A stretch of DNA of 64,000 nt, taken from positions 806,001-870,000 of the forward strand of contig NC_021184.1 of assembly GCF_000233715.2 (NCBI RefSeq), in the 5' to 3' direction. The notes beneath the pieces are model-generated. The model saw nothing but the letters and a program-made list of their open reading frames with translations, made no database searches and was not told the origin of the DNA. Made by a program: the position numbers and the translations under genes. Every line of letters begins with the position of its first letter. The stretch's first letter is position 1. Source of the DNA: Desulfoscipio gibsoniae DSM 7213. GTDB lineage: Bacteria > Bacillota > Desulfotomaculia > Desulfotomaculales > Desulfallaceae. Below, piece after piece: positions 706 to 54,746 of the stretch.

Positions 706-760
706 AACCATGGAGGTTATGCATCACAGGAAGTGAAGGCATTATCACATGGTTTTTTAT
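706..760 (+). promoter_or_regulatory. Leader hairpin family, copy 1 (upstream of the DUF3842 gene)
   Basis: Arm AACCATG (706-712) pairs with CATGGTT (748-754), and the T-run begins inside the 3' arm. The 5' arm continues as GAGGTT, matching the conserved GAAGGTT of the other copies with one change. It sits 120 bases before the DUF3842 start. The sequence looks like an intrinsic terminator with an unusually conserved 5' side, hence a candidate attenuator. The ligand or partner is unknown. Confidence 0.55.
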
Positions 761-878
761 TTTTTTGGCGGTTGTTTGGCGGTTATTAAGTCCCTATCAA
801 CTTAGCAGCGGTGAAATAAACAATCTTAGTACAATTTCTTAGTATGAACTCGATGTAATTTAACGTGAGGTATGTAAA

Positions 879-1313
879 ATGCTTAAAAATAAATTGTTTC
901 GCATTGCTGTTATTGATGGCCAGGGGGGCGGTATTGGATCGCAAATAGTGGAAAAATTGGCTATGGCGCTGCCCGCCGGCAAGGTAGAGATTATCGCTCT
1001 GGGTACCAATGCCCTTGCGGCAAGCCGCATGCTCAAAGGCGGAGCCAACGAAGCGGCCAGCGGCGAGAACGCTATTGTTTTCAACGCGCCGCGAGTTGAT
1101 TTGTTTGCCGGTACAGTGGGCATGATTATGCCCTTCGGTTTTGGCGGGGAAATGACCACAGCTGCTGCTGAAGCAGTGGCCCTGTCTCCGGCCCCCAAAT
1201 ATGTTTTACATTTGAACCGGACCGGGGTGGAGCTGGTAGGCAGCATAAATGAGCCTCTTCCGCATCTGGTGGATATGCTGGTGCAAAAAGTGCGCGAGTA
1301 TTTGGAGCTGTAA
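879..1313 (+). CDS. DUF3842 family protein
   Basis: 144 residues. The N-terminus reads IAVIDGQGGGIGSQIVEKL, a glycine-rich turn after a first beta strand, as in nucleotide-binding Rossmann-like folds and characteristic of the DUF3842 family found in anaerobic Firmicutes. The length is typical for the family. No enzymatic activity is established for it, so none is assigned. The start ATG at 879 is preceded by GTGAGGT at suitable spacing. The gene is monocistronic between two copies of the leader hairpin described here (one upstream, one downstream before the HPP gene). If that hairpin is a regulatory RNA, DUF3842 belongs to the same regulon as the ABC transporter and CooC-like genes at 40-54 kb; this link is inference. 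Confidence 0.8.
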   Translation: MLKNKLFRIAVIDGQGGGIGSQIVEKLAMALPAGKVEIIALGTNALAASRMLKGGANEAASGENAIVFNAPRVDLFAGTVGMIMPFGFGGEMTTAAAEAVALSPAPKYVLHLNRTGVELVGSINEPLPHLVDMLVQKVREYLEL

Positions 1314-1394
1314 TCATTTAGATGCTGTAATTAAGCAAGCTGGAAGATGAATAATATATACGATAAAAATGCCGCACTTGAAACAGTTGAAGAT

Positions 1395-1601
1395 GCCATG
1401 AAGGTATTGTATCTGCGAAAAGCAGATGAGCGCTTTCATGGCTTTTAATTTTTGGCAAAGGCTTTACCTTGGCAGGAGCCTTTGACCTCCTTAACATATT
1501 TCCACCGCTGGATTTGACGTGCGCCATCGGTGGAAGACACTCCTTTCGATGGGTGAATGGGGACGGCCAATCTGAGCTATCCCATTCACCTTTCTTTTTT
1601 T
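1395..1601 (+). ncRNA. Candidate structured leader RNA A (hairpin copy 2 plus terminator)
   Basis: Three modules in series. First is the family hairpin, GCCATGAA (1395-1402) with TTTCATGGC (1434-1442) and an inner stem ATCTGC/GCAGAT. Second is a linker AAAGGCTTTACCTTGGCA, closed by AGCCTTT and followed by GACCTC, then a stem TTCCACCG (1499-1506)/CGGTGGAA. Third is an intrinsic terminator, GGTGAATGGG (1552-1561)/CCCATTCACC (1581-1590), and a long T-run. The same order, with matching conserved blocks, recurs at 40423-40625. It ends 160 bases before the HPP-family gene. The two-copy conservation plus terminator suggests a riboswitch or protein-binding attenuator; no known class was recognised. 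Confidence 0.55.
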
Positions 1602-1761: not shown

Positions 1762-2373
1762 ATGCTGGTTGTAATAGATTTATTTTCGGGGGTGATAAGG
1801 TTTATGCGGGATATCGTTAAGCAGGATGGCCGGGTAGCTCAGTCTGATGTTGAAGGAAAACTTTTTACTTATCTGTGTAAAATGAAAGGCGGCAAGTGTG
1901 CAAGCTTGCCTAAAATGTCCTTGTCCGGTTTGTTGTGTACTGCGCTGGGCAGTTTTGTGGGGATAGGGTTAGTGGCTGCATTATCGGATATTTACAAATT
2001 ATCGCTTCTGCTGCCTTCTTTTGGGGCCTCAGCCGTACTATTATACGCTGCCTGCCACGTGCCTATGGCCCAGCCCAGAAATGTCATCGGCGGTCATCTA
2101 ATATCGGCATTTATGGGCGTGCTGGTCTATCAAATGTTTGGCGATGCCTGGTGGACCATTGCTCTGGGGGTGACGTTGGCCATTATGGCCATGACGGTAA
2201 CATATACACTGCACCCGCCCGGAGGAGCTACCGCTTTCCTGGCTGTCTATACCGGGCAGGATTTTGGATTTATTATGTCCCCCGTTGGGGTTGGCGCCCT
2301 TTGTTTAATATGCATTGCCTTGCTGGTGAATAACTTGTCCGGTGAGCGAAAATACCCGGATTATTGGTACTAA
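1762..2373 (+). CDS. HPP family integral membrane protein
   Basis: 203 residues with about five hydrophobic segments after a soluble N-terminal stretch. The signature TLHPPGGATAF in the C-terminal third carries the His-Pro-Pro triad that names the HPP family. KMKGGKCASLP before the first membrane segment also fits the family. Some HPP members have been linked to nitrite transport; the substrate here cannot be read from the sequence. ATG at 1762 has GGGAG six bases upstream; a second in-frame ATG at 1804 follows GGGGGTGATAAGG, so the start is uncertain by 14 codons. It lies downstream of the structured leader RNA A and its terminator, which implies premature-termination control of this single gene. 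Confidence 0.8.
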   Translation: MLVVIDLFSGVIRFMRDIVKQDGRVAQSDVEGKLFTYLCKMKGGKCASLPKMSLSGLLCTALGSFVGIGLVAALSDIYKLSLLLPSFGASAVLLYAACHVPMAQPRNVIGGHLISAFMGVLVYQMFGDAWWTIALGVTLAIMAMTVTYTLHPPGGATAFLAVYTGQDFGFIMSPVGVGALCLICIALLVNNLSGERKYPDYWY

Positions 2374-26965: not shown

Positions 26966-28392
26966 GTTTTTAGACTACCTATGAGGAATTGAAACTGTTG
27001 TTGGGCGCGGGATTCCATTTGCCCGAAATATCGTTTTTAGACTACCTATGAGGAATTGAAACCCGCCGAGGCCAATTCATCTAAACCGGTCCCGCCGAGT
27101 TTTTAGACTACCTATGAGGAATTGAAACACACATCTGGCAAGGACACAGATTCTGGCTTTAGCAGTTTTTAGACTACCTATGAGGAATTGAAACCCGCCG
27201 AGGCCAATTCATCTAAACCGGTCCCGCCGAGTTTTTAGACTACCTATGAGGAATTGAAACACACATCTGGCAAGGACACAGATTCTGGCTTCAGCAGTTT
27301 TTAGACTACCTATGAGGAATTGAAACCAAGCAACAATCGTCCAGAGAAACCACACTACTGAAAGTTTTTAGACTACCTATGAGGAATTGAAACTCTAATA
27401 TTCTATTCAGCACTGTGGCAAGCTCCCCCGTTTTTAGACTACCTATGAGGAATTGAAACTAGGTCCGGTATACCTTATCAGGCACAACTTCCCGCCGTTT
27501 TTAGACTACCTATGAGGAATTGAAACCTGGACAATCGTCACGCGCCTTGCGTTGACCTTTTCTGTTTTTAGACTACCTATGAGGAATTGAAACTGCGCTA
27601 TGACGGTCTCACTGCAACAGCAGACCACCTCGGTTTTTAGACTACCTATGAGGAATTGAAACTTTTTAATTCTATCTCTATCTTGAATTAAGCGTAGTTG
27701 TTTTTAGACTACCTATGAGGAATTGAAACTTTTTGGAGATGGAAACAGGCGTAATTTTGATCCGGGTTTTTAGACTACCTATGAGGAATTGAAACCTGTC
27801 CTATATGTGGAATTAGATTCACAGGGATCAACGTTTTTAGACTACCTATGAGGAATTGAAACTATCTCGCACCCGGGGCAATGTTTTAGCCAGCGGGGTT
27901 TTTAGACTACCTATGAGGAATTGAAACTTGCGCAGAAGTCGTATACCTCCTCTGTCCTAGCGCCAGTTTTTAGACTACCTATGAGGAATTGAAACTTAAT
28001 TCTTCTGCAATCATCAAATTTTACTTCTCGCGTTTTTAGACTACCTATGAGGAATTGAAACTCATTGTGCGGGTCATTTCCAAACCCCATTCCACGTGTT
28101 TTTAGACTACCTATGAGGAATTGAAACGCGTATCACCCACTAGGTGCTCACCTCTTTGTGTTCTGTTTTTAGACTACCTATGAGGAATTGAAACATGCCC
28201 TGTGCAAACATACTTACAAAGTTTGGACCCGTTTTTAGACTACCTATGAGGAATTGAAACCGCTCTCGGTTGATAACCTGTACCGCAAGTGGAAGGCGTT
28301 TTTAGACTACCTATGAGGAATTGAAACAGCTCCTTCATAACTCCGATTGTTGCCCCGGCCAGGTTTTTAGACTACCTATGAGGAATTGAAAC
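26966..28392 (+). CRISPR. Type I-B CRISPR array, 22 repeats, 21 spacers
   Basis: The 30-bp repeat begins GTTTTTAGACTACC and ends GAGGAATTGAAAC. By my count 22 copies are present, starting at 26966, 27033, 27099, 27165, 27231, 27297 and so on to 28363, with no mismatch noticed even in the last one. Spacers are mostly 35-39 bases. Spacer 4 (27195-27230) is identical to spacer 2 (27063-27098). Spacer 5 (27261-27296) differs from spacer 3 (27129-27164) by a single base, so two repeat-spacer units were duplicated in tandem near the leader. No spacer matches the rest of this window by eye. Confidence 0.98.
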
Positions 28393-29051: not shown

Positions 29052-29514
29052 TAAATAAGGTAACATCCCAAAACCGTTGTTACATATTATTAACATATAA
29101 CGACTGACAATCCAGTATAATTGAAAAATCGCATTATCCATAGAGTGTATAATATGGTACTTTACGCACCTAACCCATGAAATGACTGTTATGTTTTGAT
29201 TGTTAAGTGCAGCATCTATGATGTTTGAGCGAGCAGCAGACAATTTAATTACTGGTGATATGCTTGACATAATATAAGTTTCTTTCTCATGCATGCACCT
29301 TTCAATTTTTTCTAATTCGTAGTTTTACTTTATACTAATGGATAGATTAATCAAGGTTTATTCTTTTAAAGTCACAGCCAGTGTTCCAGGATATGTGGGT
29401 TAGAAAAAAGAACTTCTGTTGACCCTTGAACAAGTTTTAAGTAAGTACATGGTATTATAATTCATAATGGACATGTTTTTAAAAAAATGTTAAAATACCG
29501 TAAATTAAATAATA
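29052..29514. other. Gene-free stretch before the cobalamin riboswitch
   Basis: About 460 AT-rich bases. A 100-codon minus-strand frame crosses the lipoprotein end but shows no family features or convincing binding site. Nothing else is supported; the riboswitch promoter should lie near its right end. Confidence 0.5.
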
Positions 29515-29736
29515 GTTCAGGTTCCCCGGCTATGTCGGGGTGAAAAGGGAACCGGGTGTAAATCCCGGGCGGTCCGGCCACTGTAAGTGGGGAGCGGCTC
29601 CCAAAGTGCCACTGTACCGGCACTCAATGGTTTACTGATTACATAATAATCACACTATTTTTGTATATACCATTGGGTGCCAGATGGGAAGGCGGGAGAT
29701 TTGCTATGAGCCACAAGTCAGGAGACCTGCCTGAAC
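29515..29736 (+). promoter_or_regulatory. Cobalamin riboswitch
   Basis: Outer stem GTTCAG (29515-29520) with CTGAAC (29731-29736). Inside are GGTGAAAAGGGAACCGGGTG, AATCCCGGGCGGTCC, the B12-box-like GCCACTGTAAGTG, and GCCACAAGTCAGGAGACCTGCCTG near the 3' end, all hallmarks of the class I adenosylcobalamin element. It is followed by a terminator at 29814, then the DUF2162/MotA/DUF2149/CobN-like operon, so these genes are shut off when B12 is plentiful. Confidence 0.95.
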
Positions 29737-29813
29737 AAAACACGATAACCTCCCGCGGAGAGGGTTAGTGTGGTTGCCTTAACTAAACAGGTAAAGTAAC
29801 TTACTGGATAGAT

Positions 29814-40233: not shown

Positions 40234-40273
40234 GTTCGGGTTTTCTCTAGTTAACTAGGCTGTTAAACTAACG

Positions 40274-40297
40274 GGGAGTTGGAAAAAGGTTTTAATC
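40274..40297 (+). repeat. 24-bp direct repeat, right copy
   Basis: Identical over 24 bases to 36750-36773; see that entry. Confidence 0.7.
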
Positions 40298-40422
40298 ATA
40301 TAGACAATTCAGTAAAAGTATGTTAAATTTTAAATATACGCTATATGAAAATAGGATGGTGAGAATCATCTGTTGGTCCGCTGAAGGCGGATATATTTTG
40401 AATATTTTTTTTGAAAAATATT

Positions 40423-40625
40423 ATGCCATGAAGGTTTTTAACCTGCAGAAGCGGGGATTAACTTTCATGGCATTTTAATTTGGGTTAAAGGTTTAACCTT
40501 GGCATGCCTTTGACCTCGTTAAACAATTGTTCTACTACCGGGTTTGCACATGTACCGGTAGTATAATAGTTCCTTCTTTCAATCGGCGGATGGGGTTGGT
40601 AATCCTTAAACTAACTCTATCGCCG
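40423..40625 (+). ncRNA. Candidate structured leader RNA B (hairpin copy 3 plus terminator)
   Basis: A homologue of the RNA at 1395-1601. ATGCCATGAA (40423-40432) pairs with TTTCATGGCAT (40463-40473), then TTTTAATTT, AAAGGTTTAACCTTGGCATG with CCTTT closing, then GACCTC. A stem TACTACCGG (40533-40541)/CCGGTAGTA (40555-40563) follows. It ends with CGGCGGATGGGGTTGG pairing with CTAACTCTATCGCCG and a GGGTTTTT tail. The loop block ACCTTGGCA and GACCTC are conserved between the two RNAs while the stems vary. It leads into the transporter/methyltransferase region. Confidence 0.55.
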
Positions 40626-40653
40626 GGTTTTTCCCGCTGAATCTTAAGTAATA

Positions 40654-40709
40654 GCCATGAAGGTTAGAATTCCACAAGGAGTGGAGTTTTGAACTTCATG
40701 GTTTTTTTA
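40654..40709 (+). promoter_or_regulatory. Leader hairpin family, copy 4
   Basis: CCATGAAG (40655-40662) pairs with CTTCATGG (40694-40701), inner stem TTCCAC/GTGGAG, seven T's after. It lies in series after leader RNA B and 37 bases before the TTG start at 40746, giving two consecutive termination points for the same operon. Confidence 0.6.
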
Positions 40710-40745
40710 TTTCGTTAAGCATATTACATGAGAGGAGATGATGTA

Positions 40746-41078
40746 TTGAATAAGATGGAAATCATGCGGAAAATTGAGCAGGAAGAAATAGTTATCATTC
40801 AAGAAGAGGTTAAAGTAGATTTTGATAATCGTCAGCAATCGCCTATCGGTTTTCAGTGGCATAACCGGCATTATGAGGTTTTAGAAGTATTAACAATGAG
40901 TAAAGATTTATGTGAAAATTTAAACTATCTAGTATTAACAAATAAAGGAATTTTTAAGCTGATATTGGTGAAAGATAATAACCAATTAACTATTTCTAAA
41001 AGCAAGTGGGTATTAAATTTCCAAGTGATGGAAGATATCGCCTATCCAAATAAGAGGGTCAATGCAGTCATTCACTGA
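40746..41078 (+). CDS. Hypothetical protein, 110 residues
   Basis: TTG start at 40746, eight bases after AGAGGAG. Charged N-terminal helix MEIMRKIEQEEIVIIQEEV, then PIGFQWHNRHYEVLEVLTMSKD and YLVLTNKGIFKLILVKDNNQLTISKSKWVLNF, a small beta-rich fold with a W-H-x-R-x-Y pattern reminiscent of DUF6504-like proteins; that link is weak. No catalytic motif or signal peptide. It is the first gene after leader RNA B and hairpin copy 4, 65 bases before a binding-protein gene, so it may belong to that transporter operon. Confidence 0.65.
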   Translation: MNKMEIMRKIEQEEIVIIQEEVKVDFDNRQQSPIGFQWHNRHYEVLEVLTMSKDLCENLNYLVLTNKGIFKLILVKDNNQLTISKSKWVLNFQVMEDIAYPNKRVNAVIH

Positions 41079-41143
41079 AAACTATCAGGTCAATTTGCTT
41101 ATTACCATGTTTTAGGCTTAGGATGGAAAAGGAGGGAAAAAAT

Positions 41144-42706
41144 ATGCAAAGAAAGTACCTGTTGTTGCTACTATTGGGTTGTTTGTTATGTGTATTTATT
41201 GCGGCCGGTTGTGGCGGGGAGGACGATAATGACGCTGCTGCTGACCGGCAGGATACTTCCGGTCAGCAGCAATTGATTGTCGCTATATCAACTGATGTGT
41301 CTAATTGGGATTTGGATAAGTTTCCCGAAGGCGATAGCCGGTTTCCCTGGTCACAAATTTATGAAACTCTAGTGCGGCTGGATACAGATTTAAAAGAGCA
41401 ACCTGGTTTAGCTGTTTCCTGGGAGCCGTCCGAAGGGGGTAAGGTTTGGACATTTCACCTGCGTAAAGGGGTTAAGTTTAGCGATGGGTCACCGTTAAAT
41501 GCCGAAGCGGTAGTATATTCATACAGCTCGCGAGCTGATGTAGTTAAACGCAAAATGCTGCCGGTACAAAGCATTGAGCCGGTGGATGAATACACCGTAA
41601 AGTTTACATGTTCTCAGCCTACGCCGCTGCCTTCCTATTTTACCCACGTCGCCTGGCCTGTGATGAGCCTAATGAGCCTGGATGACGGAGGAGCTTTCAA
41701 GGGTCCGATAGGTACGGGGCCTTATAAATTAGATAAGCACCTGACTGATCAGGAAATTGTAATGGTTCGTAACGAGCATTACTGGGGGGAGCCGGGCACG
41801 CTGGATAAGATTATATTTAAAGTGATTCCCGATGCTTCCGCCCGGTCAATGGCCTTGCAATCCGGTCAGGTGGATATGGCATTAAAAATTAACGAGTTTG
41901 ATATAGAAAATTTGGAATCGCAAGCTGGAATTAATATTTACAAAAAACCTTCTACTTTTACTGATTTTTTGCAGTTTAATACTGAAAAATCTCCCTTTGA
42001 CGATGTTAATGTGCGGCGGGCTGTGTCTTATACCGTAGACAGTGAAAAAATCGTGCAACAGATGTTGGCCGGTATTGGCGTTCCTGCCAAGGGCAGGCCC
42101 ATTTCGCCGGTGATGCAGTTTAGTAAATCCGATTTGAAAATTGAGCCGGATATACAAAGGGCCAGGGATTTATTAGCTGCGGCGGGCTGGAAAGATACGG
42201 ATGGGGACGGCATACTGGAAAATGGCGGGCAACCCTTGCAAGTTTCCATGCTGCTGGCTCCCTGGAGTCCCAGACAAAAAATAGAAGCGGAAGCCATCCA
42301 AGGCCAATTAAAGGAAGTTGGTATTGATTTAAAGCTAACGGTTATGGAAACCGGTGCCCTTACCGCAGCGGAAAAAGCAGGCGAATTTGATATATTGCTG
42401 CGTTCCGGTTACTACACCTGGGGTAGCTACCCGCATCATTTTAAAATTCACACCACCAACCATATGTATGGACACTGGGATAACAGTGAATATGACCGCC
42501 TGGTGGCACAGGCTGAAGCTGCTCTGGGTGAAAATGAAAAAAAAGAACTGTATAAAAAACTGCAGCAAATAATTATCGATCAGTTACCTGCATTGTATAC
42601 CATTCACGAAGAAAAGGTGGTCGCCACCCGGGATTGGGTAAAAAATTATCAAATCACATCTGAGGATCCCTGGCTTAATCTAGCCGGGGTAAAGGTGGAA
42701 AAATAA
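41144..42706 (+). CDS. ABC transporter substrate-binding lipoprotein (family 5, nickel/peptide type)
   Basis: 520 residues from ATG 41144, behind GGAGGG. Signal peptide LLLLLLGCLLCVFIAAGC with lipobox. Family-5 motifs: WTFHLRKGVKFSDGSPLNAEAV, GTGPYKLDKH, and DVNVRRAVSYTVD. The family binds oligopeptides, nickel or metal-chelates; the ligand cannot be decided from the sequence. It is followed by a methyltransferase, two permeases and two ATPases, a complete Nik/Opp-like importer. The nickel idea rests on the CooC-like gene further down and on the shared leader hairpins. Confidence 0.9.
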   Translation: MQRKYLLLLLLGCLLCVFIAAGCGGEDDNDAAADRQDTSGQQQLIVAISTDVSNWDLDKFPEGDSRFPWSQIYETLVRLDTDLKEQPGLAVSWEPSEGGKVWTFHLRKGVKFSDGSPLNAEAVVYSYSSRADVVKRKMLPVQSIEPVDEYTVKFTCSQPTPLPSYFTHVAWPVMSLMSLDDGGAFKGPIGTGPYKLDKHLTDQEIVMVRNEHYWGEPGTLDKIIFKVIPDASARSMALQSGQVDMALKINEFDIENLESQAGINIYKKPSTFTDFLQFNTEKSPFDDVNVRRAVSYTVDSEKIVQQMLAGIGVPAKGRPISPVMQFSKSDLKIEPDIQRARDLLAAAGWKDTDGDGILENGGQPLQVSMLLAPWSPRQKIEAEAIQGQLKEVGIDLKLTVMETGALTAAEKAGEFDILLRSGYYTWGSYPHHFKIHTTNHMYGHWDNSEYDRLVAQAEAALGENEKKELYKKLQQIIIDQLPALYTIHEEKVVATRDWVKNYQITSEDPWLNLAGVKVEK

Positions 42707-42724
42707 GATACGGAGGGATGAGGC

Positions 42725-43327
42725 GTGGATACCCACAGGGAATGGTTTAATAAAAAGGCTGAAACGTGGGACAATGTTGTCCTTGAGGCTGAGAGGTGCC
42801 ACCGTTTATTTGATTTAATTACGGTACTGGACATACAAAGGGACAGCCGGGTTTTGGATGTGGCTAGCGGAACCGGTATCTTGATACCCTGGCTTTTAGA
42901 GATTGTGGGTACGGGGGGAAAGGTGGTTGCCGTTGATTTTGCAGAAAAAATGATTGATGTTGCCAGGGGTAAGTATGGTGATACGGGAGTTGATTTACTG
43001 GTTGCCGATGTGCAGCAGCTACCTTTTGAGGATAATAGTTTTGATGAGGTAATATGCAATTCCGCGTTTCCTCACTTTGCCGGCAAGCTCGATGCTATGC
43101 GGGAAATGTCCCGGGTGCTCAAAAGCGGCGGCAGGTTGACTATATGCCACCCTGCACCCAGGGAAGAACTGAATAATTTTCATCGCTGTTTAGGTGGTGT
43201 CGTTGGTAACGACATGCTGCCGTCTGAGAGTGAAATGCGGCAGATGGCTGTAAAAGCGGGTTTAGATAGTGTTTTCATAAAGGATGGTCCCGCAACTTAT
43301 TTGTTTACGTGTCGTAAAGTTAGATAG
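42725..43327 (+). CDS. Class I SAM-dependent methyltransferase (transporter-linked, no. 1)
   Basis: 200 residues, GTG start behind GGAGGGATGAGG. Motif I VLDVASGTGILIPWL; acidic end of strand 2 VVAVDFAEKMIDVA; motif LPFEDNSFDEVICNSAFPHF; and MSRVLKSGGRLTI. This is the Methyltransf_11 type. It sits between the binding protein and the permease genes, in the middle of the transporter operon. The substrate is unknown; methylation of an imported or secreted metal chelator is a possibility (inference). Confidence 0.87.
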   Translation: MDTHREWFNKKAETWDNVVLEAERCHRLFDLITVLDIQRDSRVLDVASGTGILIPWLLEIVGTGGKVVAVDFAEKMIDVARGKYGDTGVDLLVADVQQLPFEDNSFDEVICNSAFPHFAGKLDAMREMSRVLKSGGRLTICHPAPREELNNFHRCLGGVVGNDMLPSESEMRQMAVKAGLDSVFIKDGPATYLFTCRKVR

Positions 43328-43432
43328 AGCGGCATTGATAGTGCCTATATGTTTTATTTATTGGATATTGTTTGTAGTATATACAAAATTGTCTTGTTTC
43401 TTGGATGTCTTATTTAATTGGAGTTTATAAAT

Positions 43433-44386
43433 ATGAGTTATTACCTCGTTAAACGCTTGCTTTATCTTGTACCCGTTATGCTGGGTGTATCGATTATCAC
43501 TTTTGGATTGGTCAGCCTGGCACCCGGAGATCCGGCGGAAATAATCATGCAGTCCGGGGGAACGGAGGTAACCAGGGAAGCTGTGGAGGCAATGCGGGAG
43601 GAACTGGGTTTAAATGATCCGGTACATATCCGTTATTTCCACTGGCTAAATGACGTGCTTCACTTGGATCTGGGGGAGTCCTATCGTACCGGCAGGCCGG
43701 TGGCTGAGGAAATCTTCTGCCGTTTTCCGGCCACTCTGGAACTGAGCCTGGCGGCGGTACTATTTATGCTGTTGGTGGCTCTGCCCTCGGGTATTCTGGC
43801 CGCGTTGCACCGCCATGCCTTTGTGGATCATATCAGCCGGATCTGGGCGCTGGTAGGTGCATCCGTGCCCGATTTCTGGCTTGGTTTGTTGTTGATTTAT
43901 TATTTCTCCGTGAAGCTGGGTATTTTCCCCGTGATGGGCCGCGAGGGAGTGAAGCACCTGGTGCTGCCGGCGGTAACCCTGGGGTTTGGTTTGGCGGCCA
44001 TGTATGCCCGTCTGCTGCGGGCCAGCATGCTGGAGGTTCTGGAACAGGATTATATAAAGGTGGCCAGAGCCAGAGGATTAAAAGAAAAACTAATAATCGG
44101 CCGGCATGCTTTTAAAAACGCTCTTTTGCCGGTGGTGACCGCTCTGGGTATGAGGTTGGGACACCTTCTGGGCGGGGCGGTGATCGTAGAAACTGTGTTT
44201 GCCTGGCCTGGGGTGGGCAGATTATTGGTGGATGCTATTTTTAACCGGGATTACCCGGTAATTCAAGGCTATGCGCTGACCATGGCTGTTGTGTTTGTAT
44301 TTATCAACTTGCTGGTTGACATATCTTACTTTTACCTTGATCCGCGCATTCGCCTGGGAAGGGGTAATAATGTATTTCGGTCATGA
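43433..44386 (+). CDS. ABC transporter permease, NikB/DppB type
   Basis: 317 residues from ATG 43433 (GGAG upstream). About six membrane helices; N-terminal YYLVKRLLYLVPVMLGVSIITFGLVSLAPGDPAEIIMQSGG is the DppB opening. The EAA loop is KVARARGLKEKLIIGRHAFKNALLPVV. It forms half of the importer channel. Confidence 0.93.
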   Translation: MSYYLVKRLLYLVPVMLGVSIITFGLVSLAPGDPAEIIMQSGGTEVTREAVEAMREELGLNDPVHIRYFHWLNDVLHLDLGESYRTGRPVAEEIFCRFPATLELSLAAVLFMLLVALPSGILAALHRHAFVDHISRIWALVGASVPDFWLGLLLIYYFSVKLGIFPVMGREGVKHLVLPAVTLGFGLAAMYARLLRASMLEVLEQDYIKVARARGLKEKLIIGRHAFKNALLPVVTALGMRLGHLLGGAVIVETVFAWPGVGRLLVDAIFNRDYPVIQGYALTMAVVFVFINLLVDISYFYLDPRIRLGRGNNVFRS

Positions 44387-44472
44387 TATTGAGCTGTTAA
44401 TGCTTTCATATGGTAGCTTTGCATGATTATATAATGAAACTTGGCTGCTAATGTGTTGAGAGGAATTGGTAT

Positions 44473-45384
44473 TTGGTGCGGACGAGGGCTGAGGGGATAA
44501 AAAAGGCTGTGCCGAGAACGCTGACCGGGGGGAAGCGGGAAGGAATTTTATCCGCGGTCATGGGCCGGTTGGTTCGGGATAAATTAGCGCTTGTGGGGTT
44601 GGGAGTAATCGTTGCTGTTGCTGCTCTGGGGTTGTTTGCGCCTTTTCTGGTGCCTCACGACCCGGTGCAAGTGGATCTGGGGCAAAAACTAATCAGGCCT
44701 TGTGCGGAATACCCACTGGGCACGGACCATTTGGGACGCTGTATTTTCTCCCGGGTGATTTACGGTACGCGGGTTTCCCTTTCTACCGCTGTGCTTATTT
44801 TAACGGTAATTATTTTTATCAGCGTGCCCGTGGGTACCGTTTCAGGCTATGTTGGAGGAAAGCTGGACAATATGGTCATGCGGTTCATAGACATACTGTT
44901 GGCTTTTCCCGGACTGGTGTTGGCCTTGGTGATAGCGGGTATGCTGGGCCCGGGGCTGATTAACGTAATGATCGCTCTAAGTGCTGTCTGGTGGGTAGAT
45001 TATGCCAGAATCATCCGTAGTATGGTCCTTTCAGTAAAGGAAAAGGAATTTGTTGCCGCCGCCAGAGCCTCCGGTGCCACCCACAGCCAAATTATTTACC
45101 GCCATGTATTGCCCAACATAATATCACCGGTCATTGTGCTGGCTACACTGGATATGGGCAAGCTGATTCTGACCATTTCCGGTCTTTCCTTTCTGGGTTT
45201 GGGGGCGCAGCCGCCTACTCCGGAATGGGGGGCCATGCTCAATGACGGCAGGCCTTATATGCAGGTGGCCCCACATTTGATGCTTTTCCCCGGGCTGGCA
45301 ATCATGCTGCTGGTACTGGCTTTTAACTTGCTCGGTGACGGATTGCGCGACGCTTTTGACCCCAGGGGGGATAATCGCGGGTAA
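44473..45384 (+). CDS. ABC transporter permease, NikC/DppC type
   Basis: 303 residues, TTG start with AGAGGAA upstream. PHDPVQVDLGQKLIRPCAEYPLGTDHLGRCIFSRVIYGTRVSL is the DppC/NikC extracellular signature. EAA loop FVAAARASGATHSQIIYRHVLPNI. It pairs with the preceding permease. Confidence 0.93.
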   Translation: MVRTRAEGIKKAVPRTLTGGKREGILSAVMGRLVRDKLALVGLGVIVAVAALGLFAPFLVPHDPVQVDLGQKLIRPCAEYPLGTDHLGRCIFSRVIYGTRVSLSTAVLILTVIIFISVPVGTVSGYVGGKLDNMVMRFIDILLAFPGLVLALVIAGMLGPGLINVMIALSAVWWVDYARIIRSMVLSVKEKEFVAAARASGATHSQIIYRHVLPNIISPVIVLATLDMGKLILTISGLSFLGLGAQPPTPEWGAMLNDGRPYMQVAPHLMLFPGLAIMLLVLAFNLLGDGLRDAFDPRGDNRG

Positions 45385-45446
45385 CCATATTTGCGGCAAG
45401 TATGCCGCCGGGGTGCAAACAACATCAATAGGCGGGTGGTGAAAGA

Positions 45447-46454
45447 ATGTCTTGTAGTTCTGTGTTGAGCGTAAGTAATTTACATACGTATTTTTATACC
45501 CGGCAGGGAGCGGTTAAGGCTGTAAACGGTATCAGTTTTGATTTAAAAACAGGTCGGACTTTGGCGATCGTTGGAGAGAGCGGTTCGGGTAAAACTGTAA
45601 CCGCGCTTTCAATCTTCGGTTTAATTGACCCGCCCGGTAAAATTGTCCGCGGGGATATTTGTCTGGACGGGTGCAATTTGCTAAACCTGTCCCAAACCGA
45701 ACTGCGCCGGATACGCGGCAAAAAAATGACTATGGTTTTCCAGGATCCCATGACCTCGTTGAACCCGGTTTTAACTATTGGGACCCAGTTTATTGAGACC
45801 TTGAGCTGCCACGCAAGCATAACCGGGGCGGAGGTTAAAAGGCAAGCGAGGGAAATGTTGAAAAAAATCGGATTGCCGCAGCCCGAAAAAATAATGAAGA
45901 GGTACCCGTTTCAGTTAAGCGGTGGTCAGCGGCAGCGGGTGATGATCGCTATGGCCCTGGCCATGCGCCCCAGACTGCTGGTTGCTGATGAGCCCACCAC
46001 TGCTCTGGATGTTACCGTTCAGGCGCAAATACTTTATGAAATGCGCCAGTTGATCAAGGATTGCCGGGCCGGTGTTTTATTGATTACCCACGACCTGGGA
46101 GTGGTGGCTGAAATGGCTGACGAGGTGGCGGTGATGTATGCCGGATCTATAGTTGAGTATGGGAATGTTTATGATGTTTTTGACAATCCCCTGCACCCTT
46201 ATACAAGGGCTTTGCTTAAATCAGTTCCTCGTCCGGGAGTGATGGGTGAAGAATTGACAACTGTTCAGGGGCAGCCGCCAAGTCTTATTAATATGCCCGG
46301 GAGGTGTGCTTTCCTGCCCCGCTGCGAGCAAAAAACTTGGGGGTGCCGGGACGGCGTTCCTTTGTTGAAGGAAGTTGAACCGGGCCATGCGGTGGCCTGC
46401 CACCGGGCAGCGGCGGGTAAACCCGGAAAGGTGAAATTGCGTGAGCTTGCTTGA
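45447..46454 (+). CDS. ABC transporter ATPase, NikD/DppD type
   Basis: 335 residues. Walker A GESGSGKTVTAL, signature LSGGQRQRVMIAMALAMRPRLLVADEPTTALD, switch His in LLITHDLGVV. The C-terminal oligopeptide-ABC extension has CAFLPRCEQKTWGC, Cys residues that bind an Fe-S cluster in the Dpp/Opp family. It overlaps the next ATPase by 14 bases. Confidence 0.95.
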   Translation: MSCSSVLSVSNLHTYFYTRQGAVKAVNGISFDLKTGRTLAIVGESGSGKTVTALSIFGLIDPPGKIVRGDICLDGCNLLNLSQTELRRIRGKKMTMVFQDPMTSLNPVLTIGTQFIETLSCHASITGAEVKRQAREMLKKIGLPQPEKIMKRYPFQLSGGQRQRVMIAMALAMRPRLLVADEPTTALDVTVQAQILYEMRQLIKDCRAGVLLITHDLGVVAEMADEVAVMYAGSIVEYGNVYDVFDNPLHPYTRALLKSVPRPGVMGEELTTVQGQPPSLINMPGRCAFLPRCEQKTWGCRDGVPLLKEVEPGHAVACHRAAAGKPGKVKLRELA

Positions 46455-47409
46455 TGTGCAAGGCTTGATAAAGTATCACCGCTTAAGTAGTGGGGTTTTT
46501 TCAGCCCGCAGTGAAAAAATCCATGCGGTGGACGGCGTTTCTTTAATTGTTGAAAAGGGGGAAACCCTTGGCCTGGTTGGTGAGAGTGGCTGTGGTAAAA
46601 GCACTTTGGCCCGGCTGATATTAAGATTGGAAAACCATGACGGCGGCAGGATTATATTTGATGGACAAGATATTACCGGCCTGGCAGGGAAAAGGTTGCG
46701 TTGCATAAGGCGCCGGATGCAGATGATTTTTCAAGATACCTATGCTTCTCTTAACCCCCGGATGACCGTTGGTGCTATCGTTGGTGAGCCTCTGGCCAAT
46801 TACCGGGTGGGAACGCGGCGGGAGCAAAAAGAAAAGGTGCGGCAATTGTTGCAAACCGTTGGCTTAAGCCACGAACATGCCGCGCGTTATCCCCATGAAT
46901 TCAGCGGCGGCCAGCGCCAGCGTATTGGCATTGCCAGGGCGCTGGCCTTACAGCCCGACCTTGTGGTCTGTGATGAACCTGTTTCCAATCTGGATGTATC
47001 TGTTCGGGCCCAAATTGTAAATTTGTTAATGCAATTAAAAAAACAGTTAGGCCTTGCCTATTTATTTATTTCCCATGATCTGACAATAGTCAGCTATATC
47101 AGTGACCGGGTGGCGATAATGTACTTGGGGAAAATCGTAGAGATGTTGCCCGGCGGCGATTTGGCTGTAAAGGCCAGGCATCCCTATACTCGGGCACTAC
47201 TGGCGGCGGTACCGGTACATCACCCGCGGTTAAGGGGCGACAAGGAACTGCTGGTGGAAGGTGAACCTCCCGATCCGGTGAGCCCGCCGGCAGGCTGCCG
47301 CTTCCATCCTCGCTGTCCCCGGGCGCAGGAAAAATGCCGGGTGTCGGAGCCACTTCTGGAACCCATCGGCGCGGGGCACCAGGTAGCCTGTCATTTGGCG
47401 GGGGCTTAG
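46441..47409 (+). CDS. ABC transporter ATPase, NikE/DppF type
   Basis: 322 residues, GTG start inside the end of the previous gene behind GGAAAGGTG. Walker A GESGCGKSTLAR, signature FSGGQRQRIGIARALALQPDLVVCDEPVSNLD, C-terminal CRFHPRCPRAQEKC. It completes the five-component importer. Confidence 0.95.
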   Translation: MSLLDVQGLIKYHRLSSGVFSARSEKIHAVDGVSLIVEKGETLGLVGESGCGKSTLARLILRLENHDGGRIIFDGQDITGLAGKRLRCIRRRMQMIFQDTYASLNPRMTVGAIVGEPLANYRVGTRREQKEKVRQLLQTVGLSHEHAARYPHEFSGGQRQRIGIARALALQPDLVVCDEPVSNLDVSVRAQIVNLLMQLKKQLGLAYLFISHDLTIVSYISDRVAIMYLGKIVEMLPGGDLAVKARHPYTRALLAAVPVHHPRLRGDKELLVEGEPPDPVSPPAGCRFHPRCPRAQEKCRVSEPLLEPIGAGHQVACHLAGA

Positions 47410-50177: not shown

Positions 50178-50552
50178 ATGTATATTGCAGTCCAGTCAAA
50201 TAATCTGTTCAATACGATTGTGTGGGAGATAAGAATACCACGTGTATTGGTGGCAGTGGCGGTGGGTATGGCCCTTGCAACCGCCGGTGCGGTATATCAG
50301 GGAACATTCAGGAACCCGCTGGTGGAGCCATTCGTTTTGGGAGTATCCGCCGGTGCGGCATTTGGCGCGGCATTGGCCATTGTGTTTCCGGGATATCTAC
50401 CTGTTCAATTGTCAGCCTTTGTTTTTGGCATGATTAGCGTTACAGGCACTTATTCGCTGGCCAGAATTAGAGGACAAACCCCCCTGGCAACATTGATCCT
50501 GGCCGGCATAATCATGGCAGATAAGACTGGAGGTGCTTATCCTGATGTCTAA
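50178..50552 (+). pseudogene. FecCD-family permease fragment
   Basis: 124 residues. VWEIRIPRVLVAVAVGMALATAGAVYQGTFRNPLVEPFVLGVSAGAAFGAALAI is the highly conserved core of BtuC/FecD-type permeases, whose full length is about 330 residues. The N-terminal membrane segment and the whole C-terminal half are missing; after ATLILAGIIM the frame runs out into an unrelated tail that overlaps the next gene. A remnant of an iron-siderophore, haem or cobalamin importer. Confidence 0.8.
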
Positions 50553-51993: not shown

Positions 51994-52216
51994 TTTAGCA
52001 TCAAAAGTAGGAAATCAGAATTAACAGTAGAATATGGATCAAAATCAGCAGGTGTTTGCTATTACTTTCATTTACACCGGTAGCGAATGTATATTTAACG
52101 AGCAGAGTGATTTAAAAGGATTAAAAAATATGGACAATTTTGTGAACGTATGTTAAACTGTTAAAAAATATAGCGCATAAAGTTTTAAAACAATTTAATT
52201 ATAATAATAATATTAG

Positions 52217-52268
52217 GCCACGAAGGTTTTCCCAACCACAAGGTTGGAAAATGCCTGCGTGGCTTTTT
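52217..52268 (+). promoter_or_regulatory. Leader hairpin family, copy 5 (upstream of the CooC-like gene)
   Basis: GCCACG (52217-52222) pairs with CGTGGC (52258-52263), where most other copies have CCATG/CATGG: a compensatory T-A to C-G change that supports the stem. The 5' arm keeps GAAGGTTTT; inner stem CCAACC/GGTTGG. Five T's follow, and the binding site of the next gene begins eight bases later. Confidence 0.6.
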
Positions 52269-52289
52269 AATTGCGAAGGAGGATATAAA

Positions 52290-53271: not shown

Positions 53272-53320
53272 AACCATGAAGGTTTACGCTCCTTGGAAAG
53301 GGGGTCCTTCATGGTTTTTT
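53272..53320 (+). promoter_or_regulatory. Leader hairpin family, copy 6
   Basis: AACCATGAAGG (53272-53282) pairs with CCTTCATGGTT (53306-53316), inner stem CTCC/GGGG region, six T's. 43 bases before the start of the third binding-protein gene. It is the longest outer stem of the family (11 bp). Confidence 0.6.
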
Positions 53321-53362
53321 GCGTTCTCGTAATATTAAATCAATGATAGAGGAGGCGGCCGA

Positions 53363-54391
53363 ATGAACAAAAAACATTTTCTATTCACATTATTACTGGT
53401 GATGTGTTTGAGCTTGCTTTTGTTTGGCTGCGGAACAGATCAAGCACAGAATAGCCAAACTGACGGTAATGACGAAAATAAAGAGCAGAACCAGGTGGAT
53501 GTGATTCGCCTGGAGGGAGGGGATTGGGGTTATCCGAGCCCTTACGCCCATTATTCCAGGGGGCCGGGCAGTTTTAAAATGGCCCTTATATTTGACGGGC
53601 TGTTGGAGAGGGATGAAAATGGGCTTATTCCCTGGCTGGCCGAAAAATATGAAATCATAGACAATGGCAAGCAATATCTTTTTACTATCCGGGACGGTGT
53701 CAAATGGCACGACGGTAAACCGTTTACTGCCGAGGATGTACAATTTAGCTTTGAATATGCAAAGAAATATCCCACGGTACGGTCTGATTTTGCCGGTGAT
53801 GATATTGAAAAAGTGGAGGTTGTGGGAAATAACCAAGTGCTGGTAACCGTTGCGGAGCGCAATGCCGCTATGCTCTATAACCTGGGTAATGCACGCATGA
53901 TCCCCAAACACATTTGGGAAAACGTGGACAATCCCAAGGAGTTTACTGCGCCGGAAGCGGTAATCGGTACCGGTCCCTACCGCCTGACGGATTATAACAA
54001 GGAACACGGCACTTACCATTTTGAGGCCTTCGGAGATTTCTGGGGACCCCGGCAGAGGGTTAAAGCTATTGAATTCATTCCGGTCAGTGAACCAATTCTG
54101 GCCTTTGAAAAGGGGGAAATAGATCAAACCGGCATCAGCTCGGACGTGCTCCCCCGTTTCCAAAACCGGCCGGAATATAAAATAGTACAAAGCCCGGGGT
54201 TCTGGGGGTACCGGTTGTTATTCAATATGGGTGATAATCCTGTTTTAAGGCAAAAGGAACTCAGGCAAGCTATTGCTTATGCCATTGACGCCCGGGAATT
54301 GGTTGATAAAGTGGAACGCGGGGCTGCTGTTCCTGGTAGTGCGGGGGTATTACCTCCGGATCACGTCAAGCCAATAAAGCCGTTGATATGA
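53363..54391 (+). pseudogene. Substrate-binding lipoprotein (family 5), truncated at the C-terminus
   Basis: 342 residues from ATG 53363 (GAGGAGGCGG upstream). Signal LFTLLLVMCLSLLLFGCGTD with lipobox. YLFTIRDGVKWHDGKPFTAEDVQFSFEYA, GTGPYRLTDYNKEHG and LRQAIAYAIDARELV are family motifs, but about 170 residues of the second lobe are missing after AVPGSAGVLPPDHV. The end coincides with a dispersed repeat (54422) and a group II intron fragment, so insertion and deletion probably broke it. It may still be made but is unlikely to bind ligand. Confidence 0.8.
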
Positions 54392-54421
54392 CTTTGTAGA
54401 TTAATTAGCAGTTTAAAAGGT

Positions 54422-54449
54422 GACAGAGGGACGTTTCGCTTGTCTTATT
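54422..54449 (+). repeat. Dispersed repeat, copy 2
   Basis: 25 of 28 bases match 2895-2922. It lies just beyond the premature stop of the third binding-protein gene. Confidence 0.5.
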
Positions 54450-54540
54450 GAACAGCTCTTTATATTATATTCTTTCCTAATTCTTATCACTCGTGCTAAC
54501 TGTATTATATTTGTTCCTTTCTGCTGATATAATTCAACCC

Positions 54541-54690
54541 GTAGGCAAGGGCGTCACTGGTAACGGTGGGGTCTGAAGGAAGCCGAAGGGGGAACTTGGA
54601 ACATAGCGCAAGCGAACCGGTGATGGCCTATCAGGTGGGTAACCTTGCAAGTTGTGGGAAAGCCCGAAAACTGGAAATAAAACAGATTGC
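54541..54690 (+). mobile_element. Group II intron fragment (domain I-like)
   Basis: GGTAACGGTGGGGTCTGAAG then GAAGCCGAAGG, GCGCAAGCGAACCGG and GGTAACCTTGCAAG resemble the 5' part (domain I) of bacterial group II introns. The reverse transcriptase gene and the catalytic domain V region are absent. About 150 bp remain, in debris between a broken binding-protein gene and a broken chemoreceptor gene. Confidence 0.5.
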
Positions 54691-54746
54691 TATGTTGGTC
54701 ATGGTTTTTTTGCCTGATAATAGCCTGTACTATAAGGAGTTTGAAC

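Follow-up and report, generated by a model that had tools for sequence, protein, structure and literature searches.

The stretch of DNA analysed here (the window) comprises 64,000 nt of Desulfoscipio gibsoniae DSM 7213 (NC_021184.1, positions 806,001-870,000, forward strand) and carries two related leader RNAs, designated RNA A and RNA B. RNA A precedes the gene of a TM_HPP membrane protein, and RNA B stands at the head of a Nik-type ABC operon in which both NikB and NikC exceed the curated cut-offs. In both RNAs a hairpin, a U-rich tract, a ACCTTGGCA stem, GACCTC, a variable stem and an intrinsic terminator follow in the same order, which is the two-copy architecture described in an earlier note on this DNA; the regions given there (1395-1601 and 40423-40625) were right and needed only small extensions (1393-1601 and 40423-40632). 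The leader is a composite of two separable modules, termed HP1 and E2, and not the single 200-nt element of the earlier note, because each module occurs without the other. The features are given below with the scores of two covariance models, R2 for HP1 (built from 63 copies) and R3 for E2.

706..762, + strand: lone HP1 hairpin 5' of the DUF3842 gene (R2, 51.5 bits, E 2.4e-8)
879..1313, + strand: DUF3842 gene, a recurrent HP1 target (PF12953, E 3e-46)
1393..1453, + strand: HP1 of RNA A, hairpin AUGCCAUGAAGGU...CUUUCAUGGC with U-rich tail (stem 1395-1442; R2 1394-1451, 55.4 bits; fold)
1453..1549, + strand: E2 of RNA A, with Pa loop ACCUUGGCAG, linker GACCUCCUUAAC, Pb loop UUUGACGUG and tail CUCCUUUCGA (R3, 95.7 bits, E 7e-18)
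1551..1601, + strand: intrinsic terminator of RNA A (stem 1551-1590, U-tract 1591-1601; dG -24 kcal/mol; tail TTTTTTTAT)
1762..2373, + strand: TM_HPP membrane protein gene, 3' of RNA A (PF04982, E 1e-53)
40423..40482, + strand: HP1 of RNA B with U-rich tail (stem 40423-40473; R2 40424-40480, 62 bits, E 7e-11)
40483..40580, + strand: E2 of RNA B, with Pa, linker, Pb and tail (R3, 73.9 bits, E 6e-13)
40583..40632, + strand: intrinsic terminator of RNA B (dG -22 kcal/mol; tail TTTTT)
40653..40711, + strand: second HP1 hairpin of the RNA B leader, directly 5' of the first gene (R2, 47 bits, E 3e-7)
40746..47409, + strand: genes 3' of RNA B (NF045470 and TIGR02790 over curated cut-off; Pfam)
52216..52272, + strand: HP1 hairpin in a CCACG...CGTGG version, before a CbiA/MinD-like gene (PF01656) (R2, 48.3 bits, E 1.5e-7)
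53272..53324, + strand: HP1 hairpin before a NikA-like SBP_bac_5 gene (PF00496) (R2, 45.1 bits, E 8e-7)

The start codon of the TM_HPP gene is likely the ATG at 1804, which follows GGGGGTGATAAGG. Downstream of RNA B lie genes for an FmdE-fusion remnant, a NikA-like solute-binding protein (SBP), a methyltransferase, NikB, NikC and two OppD/F-type ATPases. The first of them (40746-41078) is a shortened counterpart of the FmdE fusion protein of a Desulfallas relative (L003, 2838-3787): its product matches that protein at the N and C termini and lacks the entire FmdE domain, apparently in frame.

Several further observations were made in the window. At 53363-54713, the NikA-like SBP gene ends after 342 aa; a group II intron (RF02001, 54554-54713) starts approximately 160 nt further on, so the gene may be intron-disrupted. 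At 50178-50552 the transporter island includes a piece of a FecCD-type permease, 124 aa against a profile length of 311 and probably a remnant. A CRISPR array with CRISPR-DR2 repeats occupies 26966-28392 on the minus strand, and the Rfam scan placed a cobalamin riboswitch just past it, at 29502-29748. Apart from HP1 and E2 there is a third conserved hairpin motif, GGATGGTAAGAATCATC, in most cases with a GGxCCGC..GCGGxC hairpin behind it. It occupies 40351-40397 of the window and was found 57-100 nt 5' of HP1 in several relatives (L043 at 1849 and 3883, L044 at 4005, L045 at 2691, L048 at 7791, L068 at 780 and L182 at 3528); its core, GGTGAGAATC, bears a slight likeness to part of the cobalamin riboswitch.

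Structure and conservation of the two modules

When folding was compared with 200 dinucleotide shuffles, both halves of RNA A and of RNA B beat all of them (z -4.0, -4.2, -5.9 and -4.3), and the pattern CCATGAAGGT..TTCATGG of the first hairpin, present four times in the window, did not occur in 100 shuffles. The E2 parts of the two RNAs are 63% identical, with four pairs changed on both sides and pairing kept, which bears out the claim that the stems differ in sequence and still pair.

HP1 is a terminator-like hairpin that is also found alone, very often, with the consensus [GA]CCAYGRAGGU - inner stem, GAAG-like loop - CUUUCRUGG[CU] - U-rich tract, in which sequence conservation is strong on the 5' arm and freer on the 3' arm. 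Exact-pattern searches returned one real relative among genome contigs, the Desulfallas locus L003, and none among viral contigs; a match in a Nitrospirota contig (L004) falls inside a coding region and was discarded as chance, and a plasmid similarity search with RNA A as query gave no match. Covariance models, the means of search proposed in the earlier note, reached much further and revealed both modules in relatives with strong covariation. R1, a model of the first 97 nt made from four sequences (two of them from Desulfallas sp. Bu1-1), had matches at E <= 0.1 in 40 of 113 genomes from the order. With R2, HP1 was found in 70/113 genomes of the order at E <= 1e-3 (maximum 20 copies in one genome) and in 87/398 genomes of a phylum sample at E <= 1e-4, with up to 13 copies each in family f46. 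The D. gibsoniae genome itself has eight strong HP1 copies: six lie in the window and two, at 935-936 kb, precede FmdE-type genes. R3 gave three E2 copies in this genome: RNA A, RNA B and 3,939,147-3,939,241 on the minus strand. The count of two copies was thus too low, by four HP1 hairpins in the window and by a third E2 at 3.939 Mb.

In an alignment of 99 distinct new HP1 sequences, fitted to the model, the outer stem was 93.5% paired (38-53% in slid whole-structure controls), and the column pair 6/72 was C-G in 62, U-A in 33 and U-G in 4 sequences, with zero mismatches. The same swap appeared in a MAFFT alignment of the 63 seeds (U-A 32, C-G 26, U-G 5). G-U pairs are frequent (52 and 33 sequences in two columns), a point in favour of RNA and against a DNA palindrome. 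Tandem HP1 pairs were seen in single leaders (L055 2849-2904 and 7203-7321, L200 308-428, L179 2565-2842) and suggest dose or double control.

E2 consists of two hairpins with conserved loops of the CUUGGCA and UUGACAU types. Pa reads GGUUAAAGGCUU-(ACCUUGGCAG)-GGUCUUUAACC and is joined by the linker UCCUUAA to Pb, UUCUGCUACCGG-(GUUUGACAUGUA)-CCGGUAGUAGAA, after which come the tail CUCCUUUCGA and the intrinsic terminator. R3 found copies in 21/113 genomes of the order, and its matches in the wider phylum sample were confined to genomes of this same order. Across 35 distinct copies 87.8% of cells were paired vs. 37-52% in slid controls, 20 of 23 pairs were changed on both sides, and the covariation score was 0.532 vs. 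0.204 +/- 0.013 in shuffles. The terminator that the earlier note saw at the end of both RNAs is a general companion of the module: a strong terminator lies directly 3' of E2 in 28/31 copies and mostly starts within approximately 13 nt of the core end.

The stem of this terminator is alike across distant families (GGyrTAyGGGG...CCCCrTAyrCC, with a GGTCA-like loop), beyond what a terminator needs. In family-9 genomes HP1 comes first and E2 follows 70-90 nt later. E2 copies with no HP1 directly 5' were found at five loci (L240, L241, L243, L258 and L259), where they precede CbiM (L243, L258) and FmdE (L240). The third E2 of D. gibsoniae (C1:3939147-3939241, minus strand; L073, 5148-5242) is an orphan: it has a terminator and no intact HP1, no intact gene follows within approximately 600 nt, and its surroundings look degenerate.

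Two candidate features were rejected. A complementarity of ACCUUGGCA to the HP1 5' arm (UGCCA..AAGGU), attractive in RNA A, RNA B and L003, is not general, since some E2 copies have no HP1 and the UG is missing from f5 copies. A sigma-70-like TTGGCA-17-TAACAT match was judged to be chance, its -10 part not being conserved.

Genes downstream of HP1 and E2

The genes 3' of 146 HP1 copies were mainly FmdE (17), SBP_bac_5 (15, all matching NikA models), DUF3842 (14), CbiM (13), methyltransferases (11), ABC_tran ATPases (10), ZnuA (8) and Peripla_BP_2 (6), followed by BPD permeases (5), DUF4198 (4) and CbiA (4); CobN-like and TrmO-like proteins were noticed by eye. A genome has only about one or two genes each for FmdE, CbiM and DUF3842, so their counts amount to a strong enrichment. 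In the reverse direction, of the 30 CbiM genes with the highest scores 15 had a same-strand HP1 just upstream, no more than 231 nt from where the domain begins; HP1 was likewise present upstream of 8/30 FmdE genes (within approximately 310 nt) and of at least 19 DUF3842 genes among the matches listed (within 290 nt). DUF3842 was found in 69/70 genomes with HP1 and in 20/43 without it (p 3e-11, uncorrected for phylogeny).

For 113 intergenic HP1 copies, with gene calls taken as uncurated ORFs of >= 100 aa, the next gene was on the same strand in 100 (median distance 92 nt) and the upstream gene was divergent in 32, so HP1 is not simply the terminator of the preceding gene.

The common theme of the target genes is nickel/cobalt uptake; some targets (HPP, TrmO-like proteins, methyltransferases and DUF3842) have no proven link to these metals. 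The position 5' of an HPP gene, by which the earlier note defined the leader, is true for RNA A and is one of many contexts.

Known RNA classes and the proposed mode of control

Both modules combine a covariation-backed secondary structure with a 5'-leader placement before a coherent gene set, as structured cis-regulatory RNAs do, and E2 has in addition the adjacent expression platform of a riboswitch, the intrinsic terminator. From the structure, conservation, covariation, terminator linkage and gene association presented above we infer a signal, a direction of control and a switching step. In our preferred reading (probability about 0.6) RNA A and RNA B are composite leaders for Ni/Co acquisition with two stacked transcription attenuators, HP1 and then the E2-terminator unit, which probably switch metal uptake on or off because they stand before Ni/Co-uptake genes and end in terminators.

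When metal is plentiful (Ni/Co or a metal-loaded sensor), the E2 fold would keep the linker segments (ACCUCC and CUCCUUUCGA) to itself, the terminator would form and the uptake genes would be off; when metal is scarce, the freed pyrimidine segments would capture the terminator's G-rich 5' arm by base pairing, which would let transcription proceed. In E2 transcripts truncated ahead of the terminator's 3' arm, its G-rich 5' arm is often paired with the ACCUC linker or with the CUCC tail, and these segments would then act as the antiterminator strands. No statistically supported conserved antiterminator emerged: in two tests, linker-terminator and CUCC-terminator pairing within leaders was no stronger than in permuted leaders, so the antiterminator step stays hypothetical. 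Most minimum-energy folds of the full-length leader contain Pa, Pb and the terminator side by side. The proposal of riboswitch paralogues is supported in part: paralogous structured leaders with compensatory changes, terminators and coherent genes are borne out, the single 200-nt element is not, and riboswitch function stays a possibility.

HP1 would give the regulon as a whole a further point of control, with a trans-acting factor probably reading its conserved 5' arm. No upstream competitor or alternative structure was visible for HP1, so its regulation needs an additional factor, and together with the conservation of the 5' arm this makes a trans-acting factor the simplest reading. Extended to both modules, this idea becomes the most serious rival of the preferred reading, namely that HP1 and E2 are not aptamers and that they are the sites of a metal-responsive RNA-binding protein which, much like HutP, PyrR or ANTAR proteins, blocks or promotes terminators. 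The simplicity of HP1, with no obvious pocket, its conserved 5' and freer 3' arm and its up to 20 copies per genome would all suit such a site, and DUF3842 is nearly always present alongside HP1 and itself encoded behind an HP1. However, DUF3842 has no known RNA-binding role, its presence tracks phylogeny and extends to genomes without HP1, and no candidate RNA-binding protein was identified; we place the odds of a protein-bound attenuator slightly short of even. The targets of HutP, PyrR, LicT/BglG and ANTAR proteins are likewise short conserved hairpins at or before terminators across a regulon, with motifs that we take to differ from HP1 and E2 (profile comparison was with Rfam), and no known regulator was identified here.

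More tentatively, and with the balance of probability tilting against it, E2 could be a new riboswitch class for Ni2+/Co2+ (or a Ni/Co chelate), the import-side counterpart of the NiCo riboswitch, with HP1 as a minimal terminator-embedded element that carries one RNA-level signal to a metal regulon of up to about 20 transcripts, the stacked pair forming a two-input attenuator. The NiCo (czcD) riboswitch (RF02683) has a four-way junction, unlike the two-hairpin structure of E2; it too is a cis-regulatory leader tied to bacterial Ni/Co homeostasis, and it gave no covariance match to RNA A (E <= 10) or to the loci of relatives. It controls exporters and is turned on at high metal (PMC7266159), whereas the HP1/E2 targets are mainly importers. 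Guanidine-II (mini-ykkC) RNAs likewise have two adjacent stem-loops with conserved loops, but differ from E2 in loop sequences and gene context and gave no Rfam match.

That HP1 and the E2 terminator are plain constitutive terminators, merely insulating operons from upstream transcription, we consider improbable. They do consist of a hairpin and a U-tract, and no switch is demonstrated, but the conserved loops, linkers and HP1 5' arm far exceed what a terminator needs, the copies are specific to certain gene families, and the 32 HP1 copies with a divergent upstream gene have no adjacent same-strand transcript to insulate.

It is very improbable that the elements belong, as divergent members, to one of the known riboswitch classes (NiCo, cobalamin, Moco or other). 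The earlier note had held that the known classes it could test by motif do not fit, and no Rfam 15 family reached its gathering threshold: the RNA A region (600-1800) had no match even at E <= 10, the RNA B region (40250-40760) only scattered low scores far below the threshold, and seven loci around E2/HP1 copies of relatives none at E <= 0.5; two simple hairpins are also far from the NiCo four-way junction. The cobalamin riboswitch often works via a terminator, its targets overlap those found here, and the window contains a true one. Nevertheless, its covariance model (RF00174) matched neither HP1 nor E2, and it was absent from 20 CbiM loci scanned, several of them with HP1 just upstream. Cobalamin riboswitches precede cobalt transporter genes and are predicted for some NikABCDE operons in Firmicutes/clostridia (PMC2667541).

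A mobile or dispersed repeat with no regulatory role (MITE, REP-like, or DNA-uptake sequence pairs doubling as terminators, as such sequences form terminator hairpins elsewhere), the refutation named in the earlier note, would account for several palindromic copies per genome and for the orphan E2 at 3.939 Mb, yet it is hardly credible, as copy number stays at or below about 20 per genome and the copies cluster strongly before Ni/Co genes, with that orphan as an exception, the many G-U pairs of the covarying stems would leave a DNA palindrome mismatched, 100/113 copies share the strand of the next gene, and the architecture is common to several families of the order.

HP1/E2 leaders occur before nickel/cobalt-uptake genes in many anaerobic Firmicutes, organisms that rely heavily on Ni and Co enzymes such as CO dehydrogenase, hydrogenases and corrinoid proteins. 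No description of HP1 or E2 was found in the open-licence literature, and the pair apparently constitutes an undescribed family of composite leader RNAs. The HP1-bearing uptake genes are, where scanned, without a recognised RNA regulator, for which regulon-wide RNA control would offer an explanation. A testable consensus would also give functional hooks for DUF3842, FmdE, DUF4198 and TM_HPP as metal-acquisition genes, and HP1/E2 may add a new class to the metal-sensing RNAs.
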